From the NCBI GenBank assembly GCA_964036295.1, contig OZ038462.1, positions 22,506,363 through 22,570,362 of the forward strand: a stretch of DNA of 64,000 nt, given 5' to 3'. The notes beneath the pieces were generated by a model. That model ran no database searches. It was not told the origin of the DNA and was given only the letters and a program-made list of their open reading frames with translations. Source of the stretch: Plumapathes pennacea. Taxonomy: Eukaryota; Cnidaria; Anthozoa; Antipatharia; Myriopathidae. Of this stretch, positions 52,555 through 61,203 are shown piece by piece (positions within the stretch are counted from its first letter, which is position 1; each line of letters begins with the position of its first letter). Both the position numbers and the translations under genes were made by a program.

Positions 52555-54923
52555 TTACTTGGGGACTTTTGATACGTTCTTGACAGCTTTCCCGAGCTGA
52601 ACTTGCTTGACAGCAGAGCCAAAGTGAAGCGTACTCAAAGTCTCAGCAACATTACTGAAAGAGGGACTGACATTCACAAAAACGCACGCTTTTCCGTCTC
52701 CACCAAGCGAACTCTGCAACAACTGTGTGAGCTTCGAATTTCTATATGGCACGTGCATAGCATTCGTCCTTAGCGCCATAAACACCTGTCCTAAAGCCGT
52801 TAGTGATTTGTTGATGGCGGCTGCTTCGACAAGTCTCTGTCCGGTGGCTTCGGTCTTGGAGATTCGTTCCGATCCGGCCAGGCCGACCAGAGTTAGCGTT
52901 CCGTGCGAGACGGCGTGCGAGATGTGATCCGAACCCTGAACGCGCAAAACGAGGAGAAGATGCGAACGGGAGCTGTTTGTGTTCATTTGGTGGAGCCCAC
53001 GGAACGATTGTCGTGGCCTGGCGTAAAAAGATACACAAACAAACAAACAAACAAATAAACACCAACTTTAAAATTTGCAAATTTGAGTCAAGCATCGTCA
53101 GTCAGCGTAAACCGCCGTTAGACAAGGAAAATAGTGAAGGACTTACAGATTTAAAGAGCTACAGTCCACGAATTCAAGCAAATTCGAAAACTAAGGGCAC
53201 GCGTTTGTTTGAGATGTTACTAAAACGAGGAATGGGGAATGGGGAATGCCATCAAAGAAGCCGACAGAGCTAGGGTTAGGTTTAGAGTTGGTTTTAGGGT
53301 TAGGTTATGGTTATGATTAGTTGTACCACAAACCACAAGTAGAACCACAAACCTAACCCTAAAACTAACCCTACGAAATTTAGCTCTGTCGGCTTCTTCG
53401 ATCTCATTCCCCATTCCCCATTCCACGTTTTAGTAACATCCGTTCGTTTGCGGGACTATTCTGGAATAAGAATAGCCGGAATAACGCACACACGCGCGTT
53501 TGCCTGGGAGCTATTTCTATTCCGGAATATTGGATTATATTCCGCCTATTCTGCTCCAGGGGCATAATAGCTAGAATATTCTGGAATAATGATTTCATTT
53601 GTCATTTGTTCGTGAAAACAAAGATGGCGACGTTTTCGGACGCGAACGAAAACTCATTCAGCCGAACCAAGGGAAAAGATGACATTTTCTTGGAAGCACA
53701 GATGATAATCTGTACCTAATTGCAAATTTTAAGGAATACTGTGAGACTCTTTTGCGTCAAAAACCGCAAGCTCGTCAGAATAACCGTTCGTTTAGGAAAT
53801 GAGAATATGTATATTCCGGAATAGTGCCAAACAAACACGCCCGACGTTGATGGCAACTCCACCCACCTTTGCTCATGATTTGCTTGATATCATCCGCTGA
53901 CATCACTGGAAGTTCTGTCAAGTTTGACACGACAACTTGCTTTCCCTTGGTCTGGACATTCAGCTGCTGTTGCGCCTTATCACTCAGCAAATCTCGCAAA
54001 GTCTCGTTGTACACTTCTACCATGGAGACTTTCATGGCATAGTCTATGTTCTCCCTGTCTTTGCAGATTTTTAACAGCTCCTTGATCGATCTAATATTTA
54101 CTCCCGGGTTCGATTCTGGACCCATCATGGTGTACGTCTTCCCTGAACCTGCGTGAGAAACCGAAACATTCTTGGCCAGTCAGGAACAAATACAAAACCT
54201 GATTGCGATCTACTCACGAAAGCCAGTCAGTGACAATGGATGACGGCGTTTCTTCGCACTGCCGATTGGTTAAACGCAATTTACTTTGGCTTCTGATTGG
54301 TTGAAAGTGTTTCCTGCAATCTCTCTGATTGTGGTCGGTACGTTGGTTTTAGGTTTCCACATTAATCTGAAAACCACTCAGCTGATATCTGATTGAACTA
54401 TTAATTCCCCGGACATCATTTTGTACAGTTTTCTACTCGAATAATTGGGAGAATTAACAGCATACCTGTTTGCCCATAGGCCATAATACAAACATTGTGT
54501 AGCCGTCAGCACAAGATGTGATAAGTGGAAGAGTGTCTTGGAATACTTCCTCTTGAGTACTTGAGGGCGCGAACACTCGATCAAAGTGGAACACCTTCTC
54601 CTCACCAACACTGGGCACTTGAATTTCCTGCTCAGACGGAAACTGAAATGCATCTTTACTGCTGGCATCAAACCGACATCTACAGAACACCCGGATGTTT
54701 CCACGTAGCTCCCGCAGTTTGTTGTACAACAGTCTACGCTGAAAGACCTCTTTGTGGTACAAGCTTCTAAGTTCCTCAATTTCACTTGAATGGTTGTTCT
54801 GCTGGGATTTGATCTCTCTAACCAAACCAACAGCCTGGTTTAAGACGAACTGGATCCCACTGACCCCTTTTGAGAGTGTTTCTCTGACACCAAGTAAATC
54901 TTCTGACAAGGATTTTGCAGCAA
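52555..54923 (-). pseudogene. C-terminal-motor kinesin (kinesin-14, KIFC3-like), motor exons with disabling changes
   Basis: Minus-end-directed microtubule motor family. Three exons are seen: 54466-54923 (neck coiled coil, then ELRGNIRVFCRCR and HFDRVFAPSSTQEEVFQD), 53867-54148 (GSGKTYTMMGP, VSMVEVYNETLRDLL) and 52555-53017 (NTNSSRSH switch I, GLAGSE switch II, YRNSKLTQLLQSSLGG, stop at 52555-52557). Two frame breaks lie in conserved motifs. An extra AC pair near 54497-54500 comes just before the P-loop (…DGY | NVCIMAYGQTG). A missing base near 52988 sits in STNMNTNSS. Splice phases work only in the unbroken frames. The switch II aspartate (usually DLAGSE) is glycine. An open stretch above 54923 in a different frame may mark a third break. 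Neck placement before a C-terminal motor fits kinesin-14. The coiled-coil tail is missing; a transposon lies where it should be. Sequencing error could explain single breaks but not all changes. Confidence 0.85.
53213..53440. mobile_element. 228-bp MITE with telomere-like core
   Basis: Ends gatgttactaaaacgagga ... tccacgttttagtaacatc are inverted over about 60 bp, including ggaatggggaatggggaatg and gaagccgacagagct. The core holds tagggttaggttta, ttttagggttaggtt and aaccctaaaactaaccct, which resemble TTAGGG repeats. It lies in the kinesin intron between the second and third visible exons. Confidence 0.85.
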
Positions 54924-55144
54924 CTATTCATAGCACTAAGAGTTGTTGGAGATACACGCTGCCTTTGTGGGATGGGCTGGGGAATAGGAACTGAAGTATT
55001 ATTTTGGGGGTGGGGGTGTGGCAGTTAACCGTTCCTCTGCTAGATTAAGATCACGGATCATTATCGCTTTCTGGGCACGGAGCCTTATATAAAAACAAAG
55101 AATAGCATAAGAAAAAGACCCTCTATGTAAGTGTACTGTTTTAC

Positions 55145-55350
55145 ATAGCCGTTCTAAGGATTCTTACAGAGCCGCTCTAAGGATTCTTACAGAGCCGTTC
55201 TAAGGATTCTTACAGAGCCACTCTAAGGATTCTTACAGAGCCGTTCTAAGGATTCTTACAGAGCCACTCTAAGGATTCTTACAGAGCCGTTCTAAGGATT
55301 CTTACAGAGCCACTCTAAGGATTCTTACAGAGCCGTTCTAATGATTCTTA
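55145..55350. repeat. 23-bp tandem repeat, left arm
   Basis: Nine 23-bp units of agccgttctaaggattctta plus cag. From the third unit on, gtt and act variants alternate (agccgttct / agccactct). This implies duplication of a 46-bp dimer. Confidence 0.95.
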
Positions 55351-56139
55351 GTTTGAATTGTGTAACGGGTATTTTGACCCCTGTGCTATTTTATTAAGAT
55401 TAATGGTGGATGAGTTATATGAGGTTAAGGGAGTGATCGAGTGGCGAAGTGAAGTATAAATTAAAATGATGTGCGTTAGTACGTGATTATATGCTGCAGC
55501 GCTAAAATGGGGTCCGTGTCAGGGCTTGTATTTGTGTAGGGAACATTTTCGGTAGGGAGACATGTAGTTGGGGTCGGTAGTTAACACGTGTGTTGGGTAA
55601 CAAAGGGGACGGGAGCGAAGAGCGAATAAAACCGAGAATACAATAAACAGAGAACTGAGAAACGAAGGGATTAGTGAAGAAGCTAACACAATAACAGTAA
55701 TTAATAGAAGTGGAAGTTAAACGGGTGGTGTAGGAAAGAGCGCTCTAAAAAGTGTGTCGAACTAATGAGCATCATTTGAGGTTTGTCCGTCGAAGCAACC
55801 GCGCTATTCTCATCAGGGGCATAGTAACGCGGTTGCTCTATGAAGGTGAAAGTTCCTTCAATAGTACGTGTTTCGAAATGGTAGGCGCGCGCCATCCATG
55901 CCCTACACGATCAACGGTTACAAACTTTTGGCCCTGGCCGAGTTGAGGGTGAAGGGAGAAAGGCGGGGAAGATAGTCAAGACTTCGACACAAGGAGGGGA
56001 GGGAAAAAAATTAGGTGGAAGGAATTGACTTACCTCGATAGATTTCCGAAGATCGATGCCGTAGGACTGCATCCAAACGCTAAGTAAAATACTGGGTTGC
56101 AATACGACAGGCAGTTGTAAACGAAGTCGAATCGTGGCC
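55349..56139. repeat. 791-bp direct repeat, copy 1
   Basis: Runs from TAGTTTGAATTGTGTAACGG to gaagtcgaatcgtggcc. It is identical in length to copy 2 (57447-58237), and I see only two differences (near 55629 C/T and 55974 A/G). On the minus strand it contains a terminal-exon-like frame with a stop at 55701 and a gtaagt donor after 56034. Confidence 0.95.
55701..55902 (-). CDS. Possible terminal exon of an unrecognised gene (copy 1)
   Basis: Acceptor gatcgtgtag, then a 67-codon frame containing MARAYHFETRTIEG, FIEQPRYYAPDENS and QMMLISSTHFLERS. The stop TAA is at 55701-55703. The frame is preserved without change in the second copy (57799-58000). No domain is recognised. Confidence 0.35.
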
Positions 56140-56226
56140 ACGTGAAATGTAAAGTGACCTTTGGTTTGTGGGGGCGTACCTTTTGCTGGCCAATAGGAGG
56201 CGGGTATAGAGAATTATTAACAAGGA
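56034..56226 (-). CDS. Possible penultimate exon of an unrecognised gene inside the foldback element
   Basis: A minus-strand frame reads KVRPHKPKVTLHFTWPRFDF and ends SIFGNLSR at a good donor (GTAAGT, 56028-56033) in phase 2. It joins in frame to an exon beginning at 55902 (acceptor gtgtag) that reads AWMARAYHFETRTIEGTFTF and ends at 55701-55703. Further upstream the same frame runs through the variable repeat. The function is unknown. A chance combination remains possible. Confidence 0.3.
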
Positions 56227-56229
56227 AAA

Positions 56230-57285
56230 CGGCGACTGGGAGGGCGGGTCGAAGGGGAAATTGTTTGTAAAACACATTTGTTTTTGGAAACAGGAAAAGG
56301 AGTTTCGTCGTAGTTGTTTCTGTTGGGTGGGGGAGGGGGAGTTGTTTGTGAAACACATTTGTATTTGGAAACGGGAAAGGGAGTTTCGTAGTTGTTGTTT
56401 CTGTAGGGTGGGGGAGGGGGAATTGTTTGAGGCCTGGGGATCGGGGGGGGGGGAGTGTTGGTTGTAGAAAGTTGTTTGAGGGGAAAATTGTTTGTGAAAC
56501 ACATTTGTATTTGGAAACGGGAAAGGGAGTTTCGTAGTTGTTGTTTCTGTAGGTTGGGGGAGGGGGAATTGTTTGAGGCCTGGGGATCGGGGGGGCTGTA
56601 GAAAGTTGTTTCAGGGGGGAATTGTTTGTGAAACACATTTGTATTTGGAAACGGGAAAGGGAGTTTAGTAGTTGTTGTTTCTGTAGGGTGGGGGAGGGGG
56701 GAATTGTTTGAGGCCTGGGGATCGGGGGGGGGGGGGGGGGTTGTTGGTTGTAGAAAGTTGTTTGAAGGGGAAATTGTTTGTGAAACACATTTGTATTTGG
56801 AAACGGGAAAGGGAGTTTCGTAGTTGTTGTTTCTGTAGGGTGGGGGAGGAGGAAATTTGTTTGAGGCCTGGGGAGCGGGGTAGGGGAAATGGAAAGTTGT
56901 TAGGGAAAAAAAATTGTTTGTGAAACACATTTGTATTTGGAAACGGGAAAAGGAGTTTCGTAGTTGTTGTTTCTGTTGGGTGGGGGTAGGGGAATTGTTT
57001 GAGGCCTGGGGATCGGAGGGGGGGGGGGGGAGGTTGGTTGTAGAAAGTTGTTTGAGGGGGAAATTGTTTGTGAAACACCTTTGTATTTGGAAACGGGAAA
57101 GGGAGTTTCGTAGTTGTTGTTTCTGTAGGGTGGGGGAGGGGGGAATTGTTTGAGGCCTGGGGATCGGGGCGAGGGGGAATGAAAAGTAGTTGAAATGGAA
57201 ATTATTTGTAAAACACATTTGTATTTGGAAACGGGAAAAGGAGTTTAGTAGTTGTTGTTTCTGTTGGGTGGGTCGCTCGTGCTGC
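56230..57285. repeat. G-rich variable-number repeat, 8 copies of about 134-152 bp
   Basis: Units contain ttgtttgtgaaacacatttg, tatttggaaacgggaaaggg, agtttcgtagttgttgtttc and tgtagggtgggggagggggg. A g-tract of up to 18 follows gcctggggatc. aaacacatttg recurs near 56270, 56351, 56497, 56631, 56783, 56923, 57073 and 57211. All three minus-strand frames are largely stop-free because that strand is rich in C, T and A. The longest is 356 codons (56217-57287). Confidence 0.95.
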
Positions 57286-57446
57286 ATAAACTGTATAATT
57301 GGATTACAATGACGTTACGGTAAACATTAAGATGTAATTGGAACGGAAATGTGAATTAATAAGTAAGCGGGGACGGGGTGTTGTGAAATAATAAACACAA
57401 GGGGATCCTTGGTTAGGATCGCTCTTTTCCCCGGTAAATCAGAACA

Positions 57447-58237
57447 TAGTTTGAATTGTGTAACGGGTATTTTGACCCCTGTGCTATTTTATTAAGATTA
57501 ATGGTGGATGAGTTATATGAGGTTAAGGGAGTGATCGAGTGGCGAAGTGAAGTATAAATTAAAATGATGTGCGTTAGTACGTGATTATATGCTGCAGCGC
57601 TAAAATGGGGTCCGTGTCAGGGCTTGTATTTGTGTAGGGAACATTTTCGGTAGGGAGACATGTAGTTGGGGTCGGTAGTTAACACGTGTGTTGGGTAACA
57701 AAGGGGACGGGAGCGAAGAGCGAATAAAACTGAGAATACAATAAACAGAGAACTGAGAAACGAAGGGATTAGTGAAGAAGCTAACACAATAACAGTAATT
57801 AATAGAAGTGGAAGTTAAACGGGTGGTGTAGGAAAGAGCGCTCTAAAAAGTGTGTCGAACTAATGAGCATCATTTGAGGTTTGTCCGTCGAAGCAACCGC
57901 GCTATTCTCATCAGGGGCATAGTAACGCGGTTGCTCTATGAAGGTGAAAGTTCCTTCAATAGTACGTGTTTCGAAATGGTAGGCGCGCGCCATCCATGCC
58001 CTACACGATCAACGGTTACAAACTTTTGGCCCTGGCCGAGTTGAGGGTGAAGGGAGAAAGGCGGGGAAGATGGTCAAGACTTCGACACAAGGAGGGGAGG
58101 GAAAAAAATTAGGTGGAAGGAATTGACTTACCTCGATAGATTTCCGAAGATCGATGCCGTAGGACTGCATCCAAACGCTAAGTAAAATACTGGGTTGCAA
58201 TACGACAGGCAGTTGTAAACGAAGTCGAATCGTGGCC
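57447..58237. repeat. 791-bp direct repeat, copy 2
   Basis: Second copy of the unit at 55349-56139, offset by 2098 bp. Right of it the sequence differs from that right of copy 1: tacttgggttgtg here, against acgtgaaatgtaa there. Confidence 0.95.
57799..58000 (-). CDS. Possible terminal exon of an unrecognised gene (copy 2)
   Basis: Same frame as 55701-55902, with acceptor at 58001-58002 and stop at 57799-57801. Its candidate upstream donor at 58125-58131 is also preserved. The upstream part is cut off by the repeat boundary at 58237. Confidence 0.3.
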
Positions 58238-58280
58238 TACTTGGGTTGTGTACTCCCCTCGATTTTTATTTCTGTTTCAG

Positions 58281-58334
58281 GTTTTTCTGATGGGATTTAT
58301 TAACTGCTGGCAAGAAGTGAATCAGGCAGCGATG
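58281..58334 (+). other. Exon-like segment on the plus strand inside the foldback element
   Basis: A strong acceptor (ttatttctgtttcag) and donor (gtaaga) bracket 54 nt reading VFLMGFINCWQEVNQAAM. No partner exon was found with confidence; a possible later acceptor tttatag lies at 58481-58487. It may be a remnant of a gene carried by the element. Confidence 0.25.
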
Positions 58335-58499
58335 GTAAGAGCTCTTTTCTCTACTTATTTGTTAATCATTGAACTTTGCTTTTCCTTCTTTCCTTTGTGG
58401 CTATATCTTACTGACAGTGATATGTTTCTTGGCATTATATGGGTGATGCAGAATTAGTACAAATTGCGTCCTTTGTATTGTTTATAGGAAAGTAGAGTG

Positions 58500-59375
58500 A
58501 CATCAGACGAAAGTTGAGAAAGACAGACATATGGGAGAACAAGAAGACTTAAAAATTACGGCCACAGATGCCCACAAAGAGGGAGTTGTTACATGAGTGG
58601 TTTTCAAATGCCATGGATAACACGATTGAAGACAGGGAATGAACATCAAAGTGGATGAAAATTCAAGCTACCATAGTTTATGCATTCATATATACCTGGT
58701 TGTACGAACAATATTGTTTAAGTCTTAATTTGATATGTATATTTCATTCTGGTTCAGCATTTCTTTTTTAAAGTGATTTACACTGTTTCTTTGTTTTTAG
58801 GTTTTAGACACTCCTATACAGAATTGTAAATGTAACTGTTTACATATTGTAATGCTATTATTATTGTTATTGTTATTAATATTAAATGTAATACTTCCAA
58901 CAGCAAAAAGGCTCCTGTTGTTTTTTGTTTTGATTGTTTATTTTTATTTTTTTATGGAGGTTCAAACAACGAATCAAAATTCAAAAAGGAAACGTTGTAC
59001 GTTTTTGTTAAACTGACTCATGGTTCATGGAAACCTCCATACCTATTTTGCGTTTCCTTTCTCCTAACTCATCTAATATTGGACATTTCGGTCGCAAACC
59101 TTCAGCAAATAAATAGCACAATAGCAAAACTAGACGTCCCCATGTGCTCCGTGCTACTGCTTTGTTGACCACCAAATAATGATCAGACAATATGACGATA
59201 TAAACTCGTATTTATATACCATAACGTATTTATAAGCTGATCGAACAACGACCCTGAGTTTTTGTGTTCTCACTACATCACTTTAATGCTCCACCCCTCC
59301 ACTCCTCCCCGGGTCTCCCGGCCGTCCCCTGCCCCTCTCCCAAAATTTGTTATATAAAGTTTAAAACGAGGTCTT
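58500..59375. other. AT-rich interior of the foldback element
   Basis: No recognisable gene. Simple repeats ttattgttattg occur near 58860. Confidence 0.5.
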
Positions 59376-59379
59376 TGAG

Positions 59380-59632
59380 CGGCGCTGTAAGAATCGTTAG
59401 AGTGGCTCTGTAAGAATCCTTAGAACGGCTCTGTAAGAGAATCGTTAGAGTGGCTCTGTAAGAATCCTTAGAACGGCTCTGTAAGAGAATCGTTAGAGTG
59501 GCTCTGTAAGAATCCTTAGGGTGGCTCTGTAAGAATCCTAAGAATGGCTCTGTAAGAGTCCTTAGAATGGCTCTGTAAGAATCCTTAAACGGCTCTGTAA
59601 GAATCCTTAGAACGGCTCTGTAAGAGAGGCTT
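59380..59632. repeat. 23-bp tandem repeat, right arm (inverted)
   Basis: About eleven units of ctgtaagaatccttagaacg plus gct, more degenerate than the left arm. It includes units with an inserted ga (ctgtaagagaatcgttagag). Confidence 0.95.
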
Positions 59633-59724
59633 ATGTAAAACAGTACACTTACATAGAGGGTCTTTTTCTTATGTTATTCTTTGTTTTTATATAAGGCTCC
59701 GTGCCCAGAAAGCGATAATGATCC

Positions 59725-61203
59725 CTCCATCCACTACACAAATTGCTTGCTAAGGGAACACCATGGAGTTGGAAGCAGGAGCAGTCAAAAGCGTTCCAGA
59801 GATTTGAGGAACTATTGATCAAAGCAAACCTACTGGTGCATTTTGATAGCAGCAAAGAGATTGTACTATCGTGCGATGCCTTCCCCTATGTAATTGGCGC
59901 AGTGTTCGCCCACAAGATGGCAGATGGATCAGAACGACCCATCGCCTATGCCTCACGCACATTGGCGCCATCAGAAAGAAATTATACACAGGTTGAAAAG
60001 GAAGGACTAAGCGTCGTCTTTGGTGTCAGAAAGTTTCAACAATACCTGTATGGCAATTGCTTCACAGTTTACACCGACCACAAGCCTTTGTTGGGACTGT
60101 TCAATGAGAAGCAACCAGTGCCAACCATGGCTGCGGCCCGCATCCAACGATGGGCACTCACACTCTCAGCATATGAATACACCATCCAGTATCGCCCTGG
60201 GAAAGACCATGGAAATGCAGATGCTTTGAGCCGGCTTCAACTGCCAGAGTCAATCAGAGTACCCCAGTATGATTCTTTTAGTGGACCAACTGGAAACCAC
60301 ACCAGTGACAGCCCAGAAGATCAGCCAATGGACCAGAAGGGACCCCACCATGCCCAAAGTTATCGCATACATAACCCAGGGGTTGTCATCAGTACTGCCA
60401 GCACATGAAGAGGAACTGAGACCCTACTTCAATCGGGGGCTGACAACAGAGGTAGGTTGTCATATGTGGGGGCAGAGGGTTGTGATACCCCATCTAGGCC
60501 GTAATCTAATGATGGCAGAGTTGCATGTGGGACACCCAGGCATTTGTCGCATGAAAGCATTGGCCAGGTCAATAATGTGGTGGCCAAAGATGGACAATGA
60601 CCTGGAGTAGCGTGTCGAGAACTGTAGCCCCTGTCAAGAGAACAGGCAGAAGCAGGCCAAATTGTTCAAAGTACTGTTCCAGTACAGAATCACGCCACAG
60701 ACTACAACAGGGCAATCTCCAGCTAAACTGTTGATGAATCGCACATTGAGATCACGCCTTGATCTCATCAGACCCGACACAGGAAGGAGAGTGCGGGGGA
60801 AACAAGAAGACCACAAGAGTCAACATGACATGCACGCAAAGGAACACAGTTTCCAGAAGGGACAGCCGGTGTATGTCACCAACTACGGGCGTGGGCAGAA
60901 ATGCTTCCCTGGAACCATCGAATCCAAGACTGTCAGACTCAGAGCTAGTGAGGAGACACCAGGATCAAGTGGGAGAGAGACATTGGGAACCAGAACCAGT
61001 CAGTGGGAGTGAGGAACCTGACCTGACATCAGACTCAGCACCAACCCAAGCTGCGCCCACAATCACTGAGTCTACCCCACCCACAACTGTGGTGACATCA
61101 GCTACACCAGCAAATCCAGCCAGTTGCGAGTCCACCCAGAGGACATACCCTGTGCGTGACCGGAAGGCACCCAGCTATCTGAGAGACTTTGTGCGCAGCT
61201 GAA
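59725..61203 (+). pseudogene. gypsy pol remnant: RT end, RNase H, integrase pieces
   Basis: RNase H block with SCDAFPYVIGAVFAHKM, RPIAYASRTLAPSERNYTQV, KEGLSVVFGVRKFQQYLYG and YTDHKPLLGLF (catalytic D, E, D visible), then YRPGKDHGNADALSRL. A frameshift near 60275 leads to the integrase zinc-binding segment (HVGHPGICRMKAL ... WWPKM ... CSPCQENR), which has an in-frame TAG at 60608-60610. The catalytic core is deleted between CQENRQKQAK and LFQYRITPQTTTGQ, near 60660. A further frameshift near 60960 precedes the tail (YPVRDRKAPSYLRDFV). The element is dead. Confidence 0.92.

Follow-up and report, generated by a model that had tools for sequence, protein, structure and literature searches.

The window analysed in the present study is a stretch of 64,000 nucleotides (nt) from the antipatharian Plumapathes pennacea (GenBank assembly GCA_964036295.1, contig OZ038462.1, positions 22,506,363 to 22,570,362 of the forward strand). 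It contains a repeat-bounded element at 55055-59724, which has GGATC as its first bases and GATCC as its last, starts with GGATCATTATCGCTTTCTGG and terminates in the reverse complement of GGATCATTATCGCTTTCTGG. A sequence-only reading had described a foldback-like element with composite inverted ends here; its coordinates are exact, and the terminal arrays do lie in opposite orientation. Very probably, this element derives by internal deletion from a giant cut-and-paste DNA transposon of the Merlin superfamily and is itself non-autonomous, since 18-25-kb relatives with the same terminus enclose a Merlin-type DDE transposase, an open reading frame (ORF) of RING/TRAF zinc-finger type and an ORF divergent from the transposase. 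The element is composed of the following parts, with array periods from Tandem Repeats Finder (TRF):

55055..55147, plus strand: terminal inverted repeat block of the A-end (GGATCATTATCGCTTTCTGG...), 93 bp, 99% complementary to 59632-59724
55141..55350, plus strand: A-end array, nine unit cores; 23-bp units repeating as 46-bp dimers (9.1 copies at period 23, 4.6 at period 46)
55349..58237, plus strand: foreign nested repeat outside the transposon family, 791-bp copies flanking a G-rich tandem array
58236..59372, minus strand: inner B-end, common to family members (part of 58236-59724, which matches the B-ends of nine other copies)
59373..59627, minus strand: B-end array of 23-bp units with occasional 22-/25-bp steps, ten unit cores
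59632..59724, minus strand: terminal inverted repeat block of the B-end, pairing with 55055-55147

The outer block had been given as 96 bp, but its length is 93 bp. The left array matches at 98% with a 46-bp period vs 91% with 23 bp, so the alternating dimer of the sequence-only reading is real. The right array, detected at 59381-59625 with period 23 and at 59373-59627 with period 71, is less regular than the left, and its 22-/25-bp steps recur in the B-ends of other copies. The two arrays are linked by arms of up to 102 nt that are 92% complementary, and 8-21 unit cores per end, mostly 8-11, were observed across 15 ends counted, the A-end at 55055 included. The sequence-only reading had overlooked the nested repeat, the kinship of the inner B-end with the transposon family and the lack of a target duplication. 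The 791-bp copies of the nested repeat (55349-56139 and 57447-58237) are 99.7% identical and enclose the G-rich array at 56253-57272. As a part of the transposon this repeat was rejected, because it is present at many unrelated places and its boundaries vary; it has 41 genome matches (best 40 of 326 candidate places scored), and the stretch 55349-58237 showed no match of at least 150 bp in nine other element copies compared. Without it, an A-end of 296 bp and a B-end of 1,490 bp are left, which are 92.9-98.0% identical to the same-type ends of seven copies and 94.1-98.9% identical (58236-59724) to the B-ends of nine copies, respectively. Judged by its sequence, the window copy is just the two ends of the element plus the foreign repeat. 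No coding function was recognised in the inner B-end (58236-59372), for which one ORF of the corresponding stretch of the longer copy E24, described below, had no Pfam match. The nested repeat itself consists of 791-bp direct copies about 2.1 kb apart and occurs in tandem elsewhere in the genome; by the available description, its direct-repeat architecture sounds similar to that of KolobokP.

The genome searched comprised 290 Mb in 24 contigs. The terminus GGATCATTATCGCTNNCTGG occurs 68 times, compared with 0 for the reversed control, and at least 111 times with up to two mismatches, compared with 1; the first 106 bp (55055-55160) gave 44 matches (best 40 of 73 candidates scored). According to two variable letters, the 68 ends comprise 27 TT (the window family), 13 AT, 17 AG and 11 AA. 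Facing TT ends delimit copies of about 0.6-37 kb, with a further 0.4-kb facing pair at C4:13314393, and nine TT copies, named by size in kb, were retrieved whole:

C12:7936136: E4
C12:5307686: E5
C8:6680135: E7
C11:12191217: E12
C11:6705211: E16
C2:14124944: E17
C4:22982028-23006563: E24, 24,536 bp, the fullest well-preserved copy
C2:14457729: E37a
C2:13884268: E37b

Thus, the genome copies and defined ends that the sequence-only reading had called for were obtained. When aligned with E24, the small copies match its ends and are deleted internally, and both E24 and the E37 copies carry copy-specific insertions. Because E37a and E37b share their flanks and sit in a duplicated chromosome segment (C2 13.88-13.92 and 14.46-14.49 Mb), they were counted as one insertion.

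Target duplications, which that reading had also proposed to define, were perfect over 8 bp in 8 of the 17 paired copies checked (5/12 in the TT family and 3/5 in sister families, which are introduced below). In the TT family these are E24 (AGAATACC), E4 (AGTATCTG), E5 (CAAACTTG), E12 (CCTCTCGT) and E7 (AAAATCTG), and in the sister families C1:12678506-12700468 (22.0 kb, ACAACTTG), C2:20789573-20809824 (20.3 kb, GAAACTTG) and C8:7885286-7904522 (19.2 kb, GATAAATG). Four elements of 19-25 kb thus have perfect duplications, and at least these four were therefore inserted as whole units. E4, E5, E7 and E12 contain no transposase match despite their perfect duplications, and therefore either were mobilised in trans or have since lost the gene. 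A local inverted duplication without any transposon would agree with the missing duplication of the window copy; however, these ends are found at numerous unrelated sites, and the 8-bp duplications differ between several of them; for this reason the explanation is rejected as having next to no probability. The one-off local inversion that the sequence-only reading had named as the outcome against itself is thus not the case. Polinton/Maverick elements produce a 6-bp target duplication and were likewise rejected as candidates, the duplications here being of 8 bp.

A long copy with a transposase is represented by E24 (24.5 kb), in which a gene of 302 codons, encoding a 302-amino-acid transposase, runs on the minus strand from element position ~16239 to 14635 in three exons separated by two GT...AG introns. 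This three-exon frame is also intact in E16; the third exon is open in E37b and stop-bearing in E37a, and both E37 copies have an insertion of ~3 kb between the first and second exon regions. The E24 protein matched Pfam DDE_Tnp_IS1595 (3.3e-14) and the NCBIfam IS1595 transposase model (4e-20; 72.6 bits, just below the cut-off of 75). The conserved blocks CDESQF, (S/T)DDW and HTQE are all present in the TT and CTAT families, the last two in the CTAG family as well, and we take them to hold the D, D and E residues. The Merlin superfamily is described, in the available part of PMC8101967, by terminal 5'-GG, inverted repeats of 24-462 bp, duplications of 8 or 9 bp and a DDE_Tnp_IS1595 domain. First, 5'-GG is present at both ends of the elements here (GGATCATTATCGC). 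Second, the inverted repeats lie within that range, measuring 93 bp at 99% complementarity for the block and ~296 bp at ~90-94% with the arrays included, when the B-ends of other copies are compared with the window A-end. Third, duplications of 8 bp flank eight of the 17 pairs, perfect ones being missing from the window copy and eight other pairs. The terminal GG, the 8-bp duplications and the DDE_Tnp_IS1595 domain therefore place the elements in the Merlin superfamily. Since the transposase of the long copies belongs to this superfamily, the earlier proposal of an undescribed transposon type does not stand as to type, and the known family with a defined transposase that had been set against it was in part found; as a lineage, the elements do seem undescribed.

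The same terminus and transposase also co-occur beyond the TT family. The last exon of the transposase has 114 genome matches, of which five are near-identical and the next seven are 65-69% identical. Six of these seven lie between facing termini: five between exact ones (C1:12689518, C2:20800627, C8:6329552, C8:7893176 and C10:11679618), and the sixth, C7:4897110, inside termini that lie 57 kb apart and each carry one mismatch. The sister families with the same terminus are elements of 18-22 kb, and in the one on C1 a terminal block of this kind precedes an array whose units measure 15 bp rather than 23 bp. Among three families, identity is 68-79% for the transposase exon, 49-58% for the divergent ORF and 29-50% for the RING/TRAF ORF. 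This transposase may act on these ends, with which it co-occurs in three diverged families.

Alternatively, the foldback element might belong to a different superfamily (P/Galileo, Mutator/Tm1 type or KDZ) and merely contain a small nested Merlin, which we consider quite improbable. Foldback-like ends are known for Galileo in the P superfamily and for Tm1 in Mutator, as far as the available accounts go, nested repeats are frequent in the element copies, and further ORFs in E37a/E37b have a resemblance of the KDZ type. The E37a ORFs (L031 8541-9999, L032 723-1316) and those of E37b may resemble OTU/KDZ transposase-like proteins, with no such Pfam call and one weak CXC match below cut-off. However, the segment with these ORFs is absent from E24, and neither E24 nor E16 gave a match to the KDZ-like ORF; the Merlin gene is found at the homologous place in E24, E16, E37a and E37b. 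Around the transposase, the 4 kb of E24 searched contain no flanking inverted repeats with GG ends: inverted pairs of 69 and 41 nt sit to one side of the gene, and a 23-nt pair (78%) brackets it without a GG start. The presence of terminus and transposase together in three diverged families also argues against such nesting, as do the duplications, which are 8 bp here and 9 bp in the available account of Tm1.

The accessory ORFs bear on a different alternative, namely that ordinary small Merlins grew large by accident, through nested repeats and the capture of host DNA, and that the RING/TRAF and divergent ORFs are passengers. The E24 RING/TRAF ORF matched zf-TRAF (2.1e-6, above cut-off) and RING, and all seven of the 65-69% identical transposases have a RING/TRAF ORF at 3.8-6.3 kb. 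Of 98 transposase loci, 17 have a RING/TRAF homologue at a distance of 10 kb or less, compared with ~0.24 expected under uniform placement (98 positions represent the 114 rows with second fragments of a locus omitted, and the RING lists from two queries were merged to 35). The divergent ORF lies head-to-head with the transposase on the opposite strand, their starts being ~270 bp apart, and all 11 of its genome rows, representing 10 loci, fall on contig stretches with a Merlin transposase, nine loci within ~5 kb of it and C7:4927881 ~31 kb away inside the 57-kb pair. In nine of nine family comparisons, covering the three ORFs, third codon positions changed more than first or second positions, the excess being weak in the two RING pairs of 29-31% identity; thus, the accessory ORFs show signs of coding constraint. 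Accidental swelling agrees with the copy-specific insertions of E24 and E37, with a reverse-transcriptase fragment in E24 (RVT_1 1.3e-6, below cut-off), with the 57-kb terminus pair on C7 and with a RING/TRAF ORF that was perhaps captured more than once. We nevertheless regard it as unlikely, because families whose transposases are 65-79% identical measure 18-25 kb with the same neighbouring ORFs, the divergent ORF was found solely beside Merlin transposases, and the codon-position pattern extends to all three ORFs. Two further 3' exons of E24 have homologues of 92-98% identity (better-matched exon) at nine loci, of which eight fall within or next to TT-ended copies, and of 61-68% identity at nine loci. 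By eye these exons (relative positions 21.9-22.3 kb) had a likeness to a UBX domain, which was rejected after Pfam and PDB sequence searches gave no such match.

Several observations weigh against a giant Merlin transposon as the source of the window element. The window copy lacks both a transposase and a target duplication, with AAGATCAC on its left flank and CTCCATCC on its right. Perfect duplications are absent from 9 of the 17 pairs checked: in the TT family from the window copy, E16, E17, C3:8972922-8974715 and C4:6015811-6016442, and from E37a/E37b, in which the duplication can be read as 7/8 matching if the left end is taken to lack its last 8 bp; in the sister families from C8:6320219-6339825, with either right end, and C10:11669944-11687724. 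C2:22564301, one of the seven transposases of 65-69% identity, has no terminus pair among the matches listed, and no relative was found in viral contigs. The 17 transposase loci with a nearby RING/TRAF homologue are not independent events, because near-identical and segmentally duplicated copies (E37a/E37b) are included. Moreover, for 18 of the 35 RING/TRAF loci the nearest listed transposase is over 20 kb away, and the ORFs of the TT and sister families are 29-31% identical and differently oriented to the transposase, so independent capture is possible.

In comparison with known systems, Merlin (related to IS1595/IS1016) has the same DDE_Tnp_IS1595 transposase, 5'-GG termini and 8-bp duplications. 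The available part of PMC8101967 gives Merlin lengths of 762 bp, 1.29 kb and 2.57 kb, reports internal tandem repeats in some families and describes no accessory gene, save an overlapping ORF thought to be due to chance. Unlike the Merlins described there, the elements here measure 18-25 kb and have introns, a RING/TRAF ORF, a divergent ORF and foldback-type array ends. Their long inverted repeats made of tandem arrays, of 15-bp units in the sister family, place them in the Foldback structural class. Galileo, as far as described in the source available, has long, internally repetitive inverted repeats as here, and the DNA-binding domain of its transposase binds several sites within them (PMC3688188); its transposase is of the P type with a THAP domain, whereas that found here is of the IS1595 type. 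No P-type transposase with THAP was found in the selected ORFs scanned (6 + 10 ORFs and 4 peptides), most short ORFs lying outside the scan. Tm1 of root-knot nematodes (Mutator/Foldback) has composite inverted repeats of variable length, with members resembling miniature inverted-repeat transposable elements as well as coding members, but differs in its Mutator-type transposase and 9-bp duplications (PMC3169594, available part). Giant eukaryotic DNA transposons include Polinton, Teratorn and enlarged CACTA elements of 16-20 kb, according to a review in which the word Merlin has a count of 0 (PMC6431247). These giants share size and extra genes with the present elements and differ in their transposases or integrases, and none of the ORFs scanned here was recognisable as a viral gene. 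In the open-licence literature, most subscription papers and Repbase lying outside the search, no description was found of a Merlin with foldback ends, giant size or accessory genes, nor, in the open-licence literature, of foldback elements in corals. Thus, Merlins of 18-25 kb with array-bearing ends and further conserved ORFs seem to be an undescribed lineage.

Herein, the best reading of the mechanism, drawn from knowledge of the family and from the co-occurrence described above, is cut-and-paste transposition by the Merlin transposase with mobilisation of small copies in trans. The transposase from full copies would recognise the GG-ended blocks, and the arrays of 23-bp units (15-bp in the sister family) might be extra transposase-binding sites, a role suggested because Galileo ends look alike and several binding sites have been mapped there. 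Small copies such as the window element would have arisen by internal deletion and been mobilised in trans. Judging solely from its domains, one may guess that the RING/TRAF protein acts on the ubiquitin system of the host in favour of the element. More tentatively, and with somewhat less than even confidence, we propose an undescribed giant-Merlin lineage with a conserved three-gene core of spliced transposase, head-to-head divergent protein and RING/TRAF ubiquitin-ligase-like protein, in which the accessory proteins might be needed for 20-kb mobility or for countering silencing and the foldback arrays evolved anew with family-specific unit lengths. If true, this lineage would be about ten times the 2.57-kb Merlin example of the available literature, with two extra ORFs under constraint, Merlin would join the few giant eukaryotic DNA transposons, foldback-type ends would gain another transposase superfamily, and the RING/TRAF gene would become a transposon accessory factor open to testing. 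Because one genome holds several families in which transposase frames are open and target duplications match, end recognition and size limits could be examined directly.

The immediate neighbours of the window copy are the following:

54457..54927, minus strand: kinesin exon of a host gene, left neighbour (Pfam Microtub_bd 1.4e-20)
59722..60405, plus strand: gypsy-type RNase H coding sequence, right neighbour (Pfam RT_RNaseH 2.2e-33)

The kinesin exon also matched Pfam Kinesin (3.3e-6, below its cut-off) and PDB Ncd (2.4e-12), the top PDB matches being kinesin-14 motors. The gypsy open frame starts within the last bases of the element; an empty site was not seen among four genome gypsy matches, no other copy having the first 48 bases. 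The target duplication of the window copy may have been lost by later rearrangement or inter-copy recombination, another repeat being received in the middle; later rearrangement, or transposition using the ends of two copies, would fit.

Several further observations were made in the genome. At C7:9671570-9692490, a 20.9-kb pair of one-mismatch termini surrounds a 54% transposase, a 52% RING/TRAF ORF and a 68% 3'-exon homologue, and it also encloses a 98% TT-type transposase; this is possibly a fourth giant family with a nested TT fragment. The near-identical transposase C7:9679142 has no TT ends. RING/TRAF-like ORFs with a 171-amino-acid frame far from listed Merlin matches (C1:16289431, C1:18087500, C12:5657423, C1:12444576 and C2:17886178) are possibly cargo of a different mobile family, and a 94% copy of the KDZ-like ORF at C1:12448586, ~4 kb from the match at C1:12444576, perhaps marks another large element. 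E7 (C8:6679635-6687790) has a 341-bp, 100% identical inverted copy of its left flank between its inner and outer right end, which looks as if the flank had been captured by fold-back copying, either at insertion or afterwards. E17 (C2 14.12-14.14 Mb) shares the start of its right flank with E37a/E37b, differs from them in its left flank and is bounded by a B-end on either side, and looks like a rearranged relative. Finally, duplicated or nested termini in proximity are common in this lineage (C11:6705211, C2:14141839-14141888, C1:12699341-12700468, C8:6339384-6339825 and C5:9515195-9516295).

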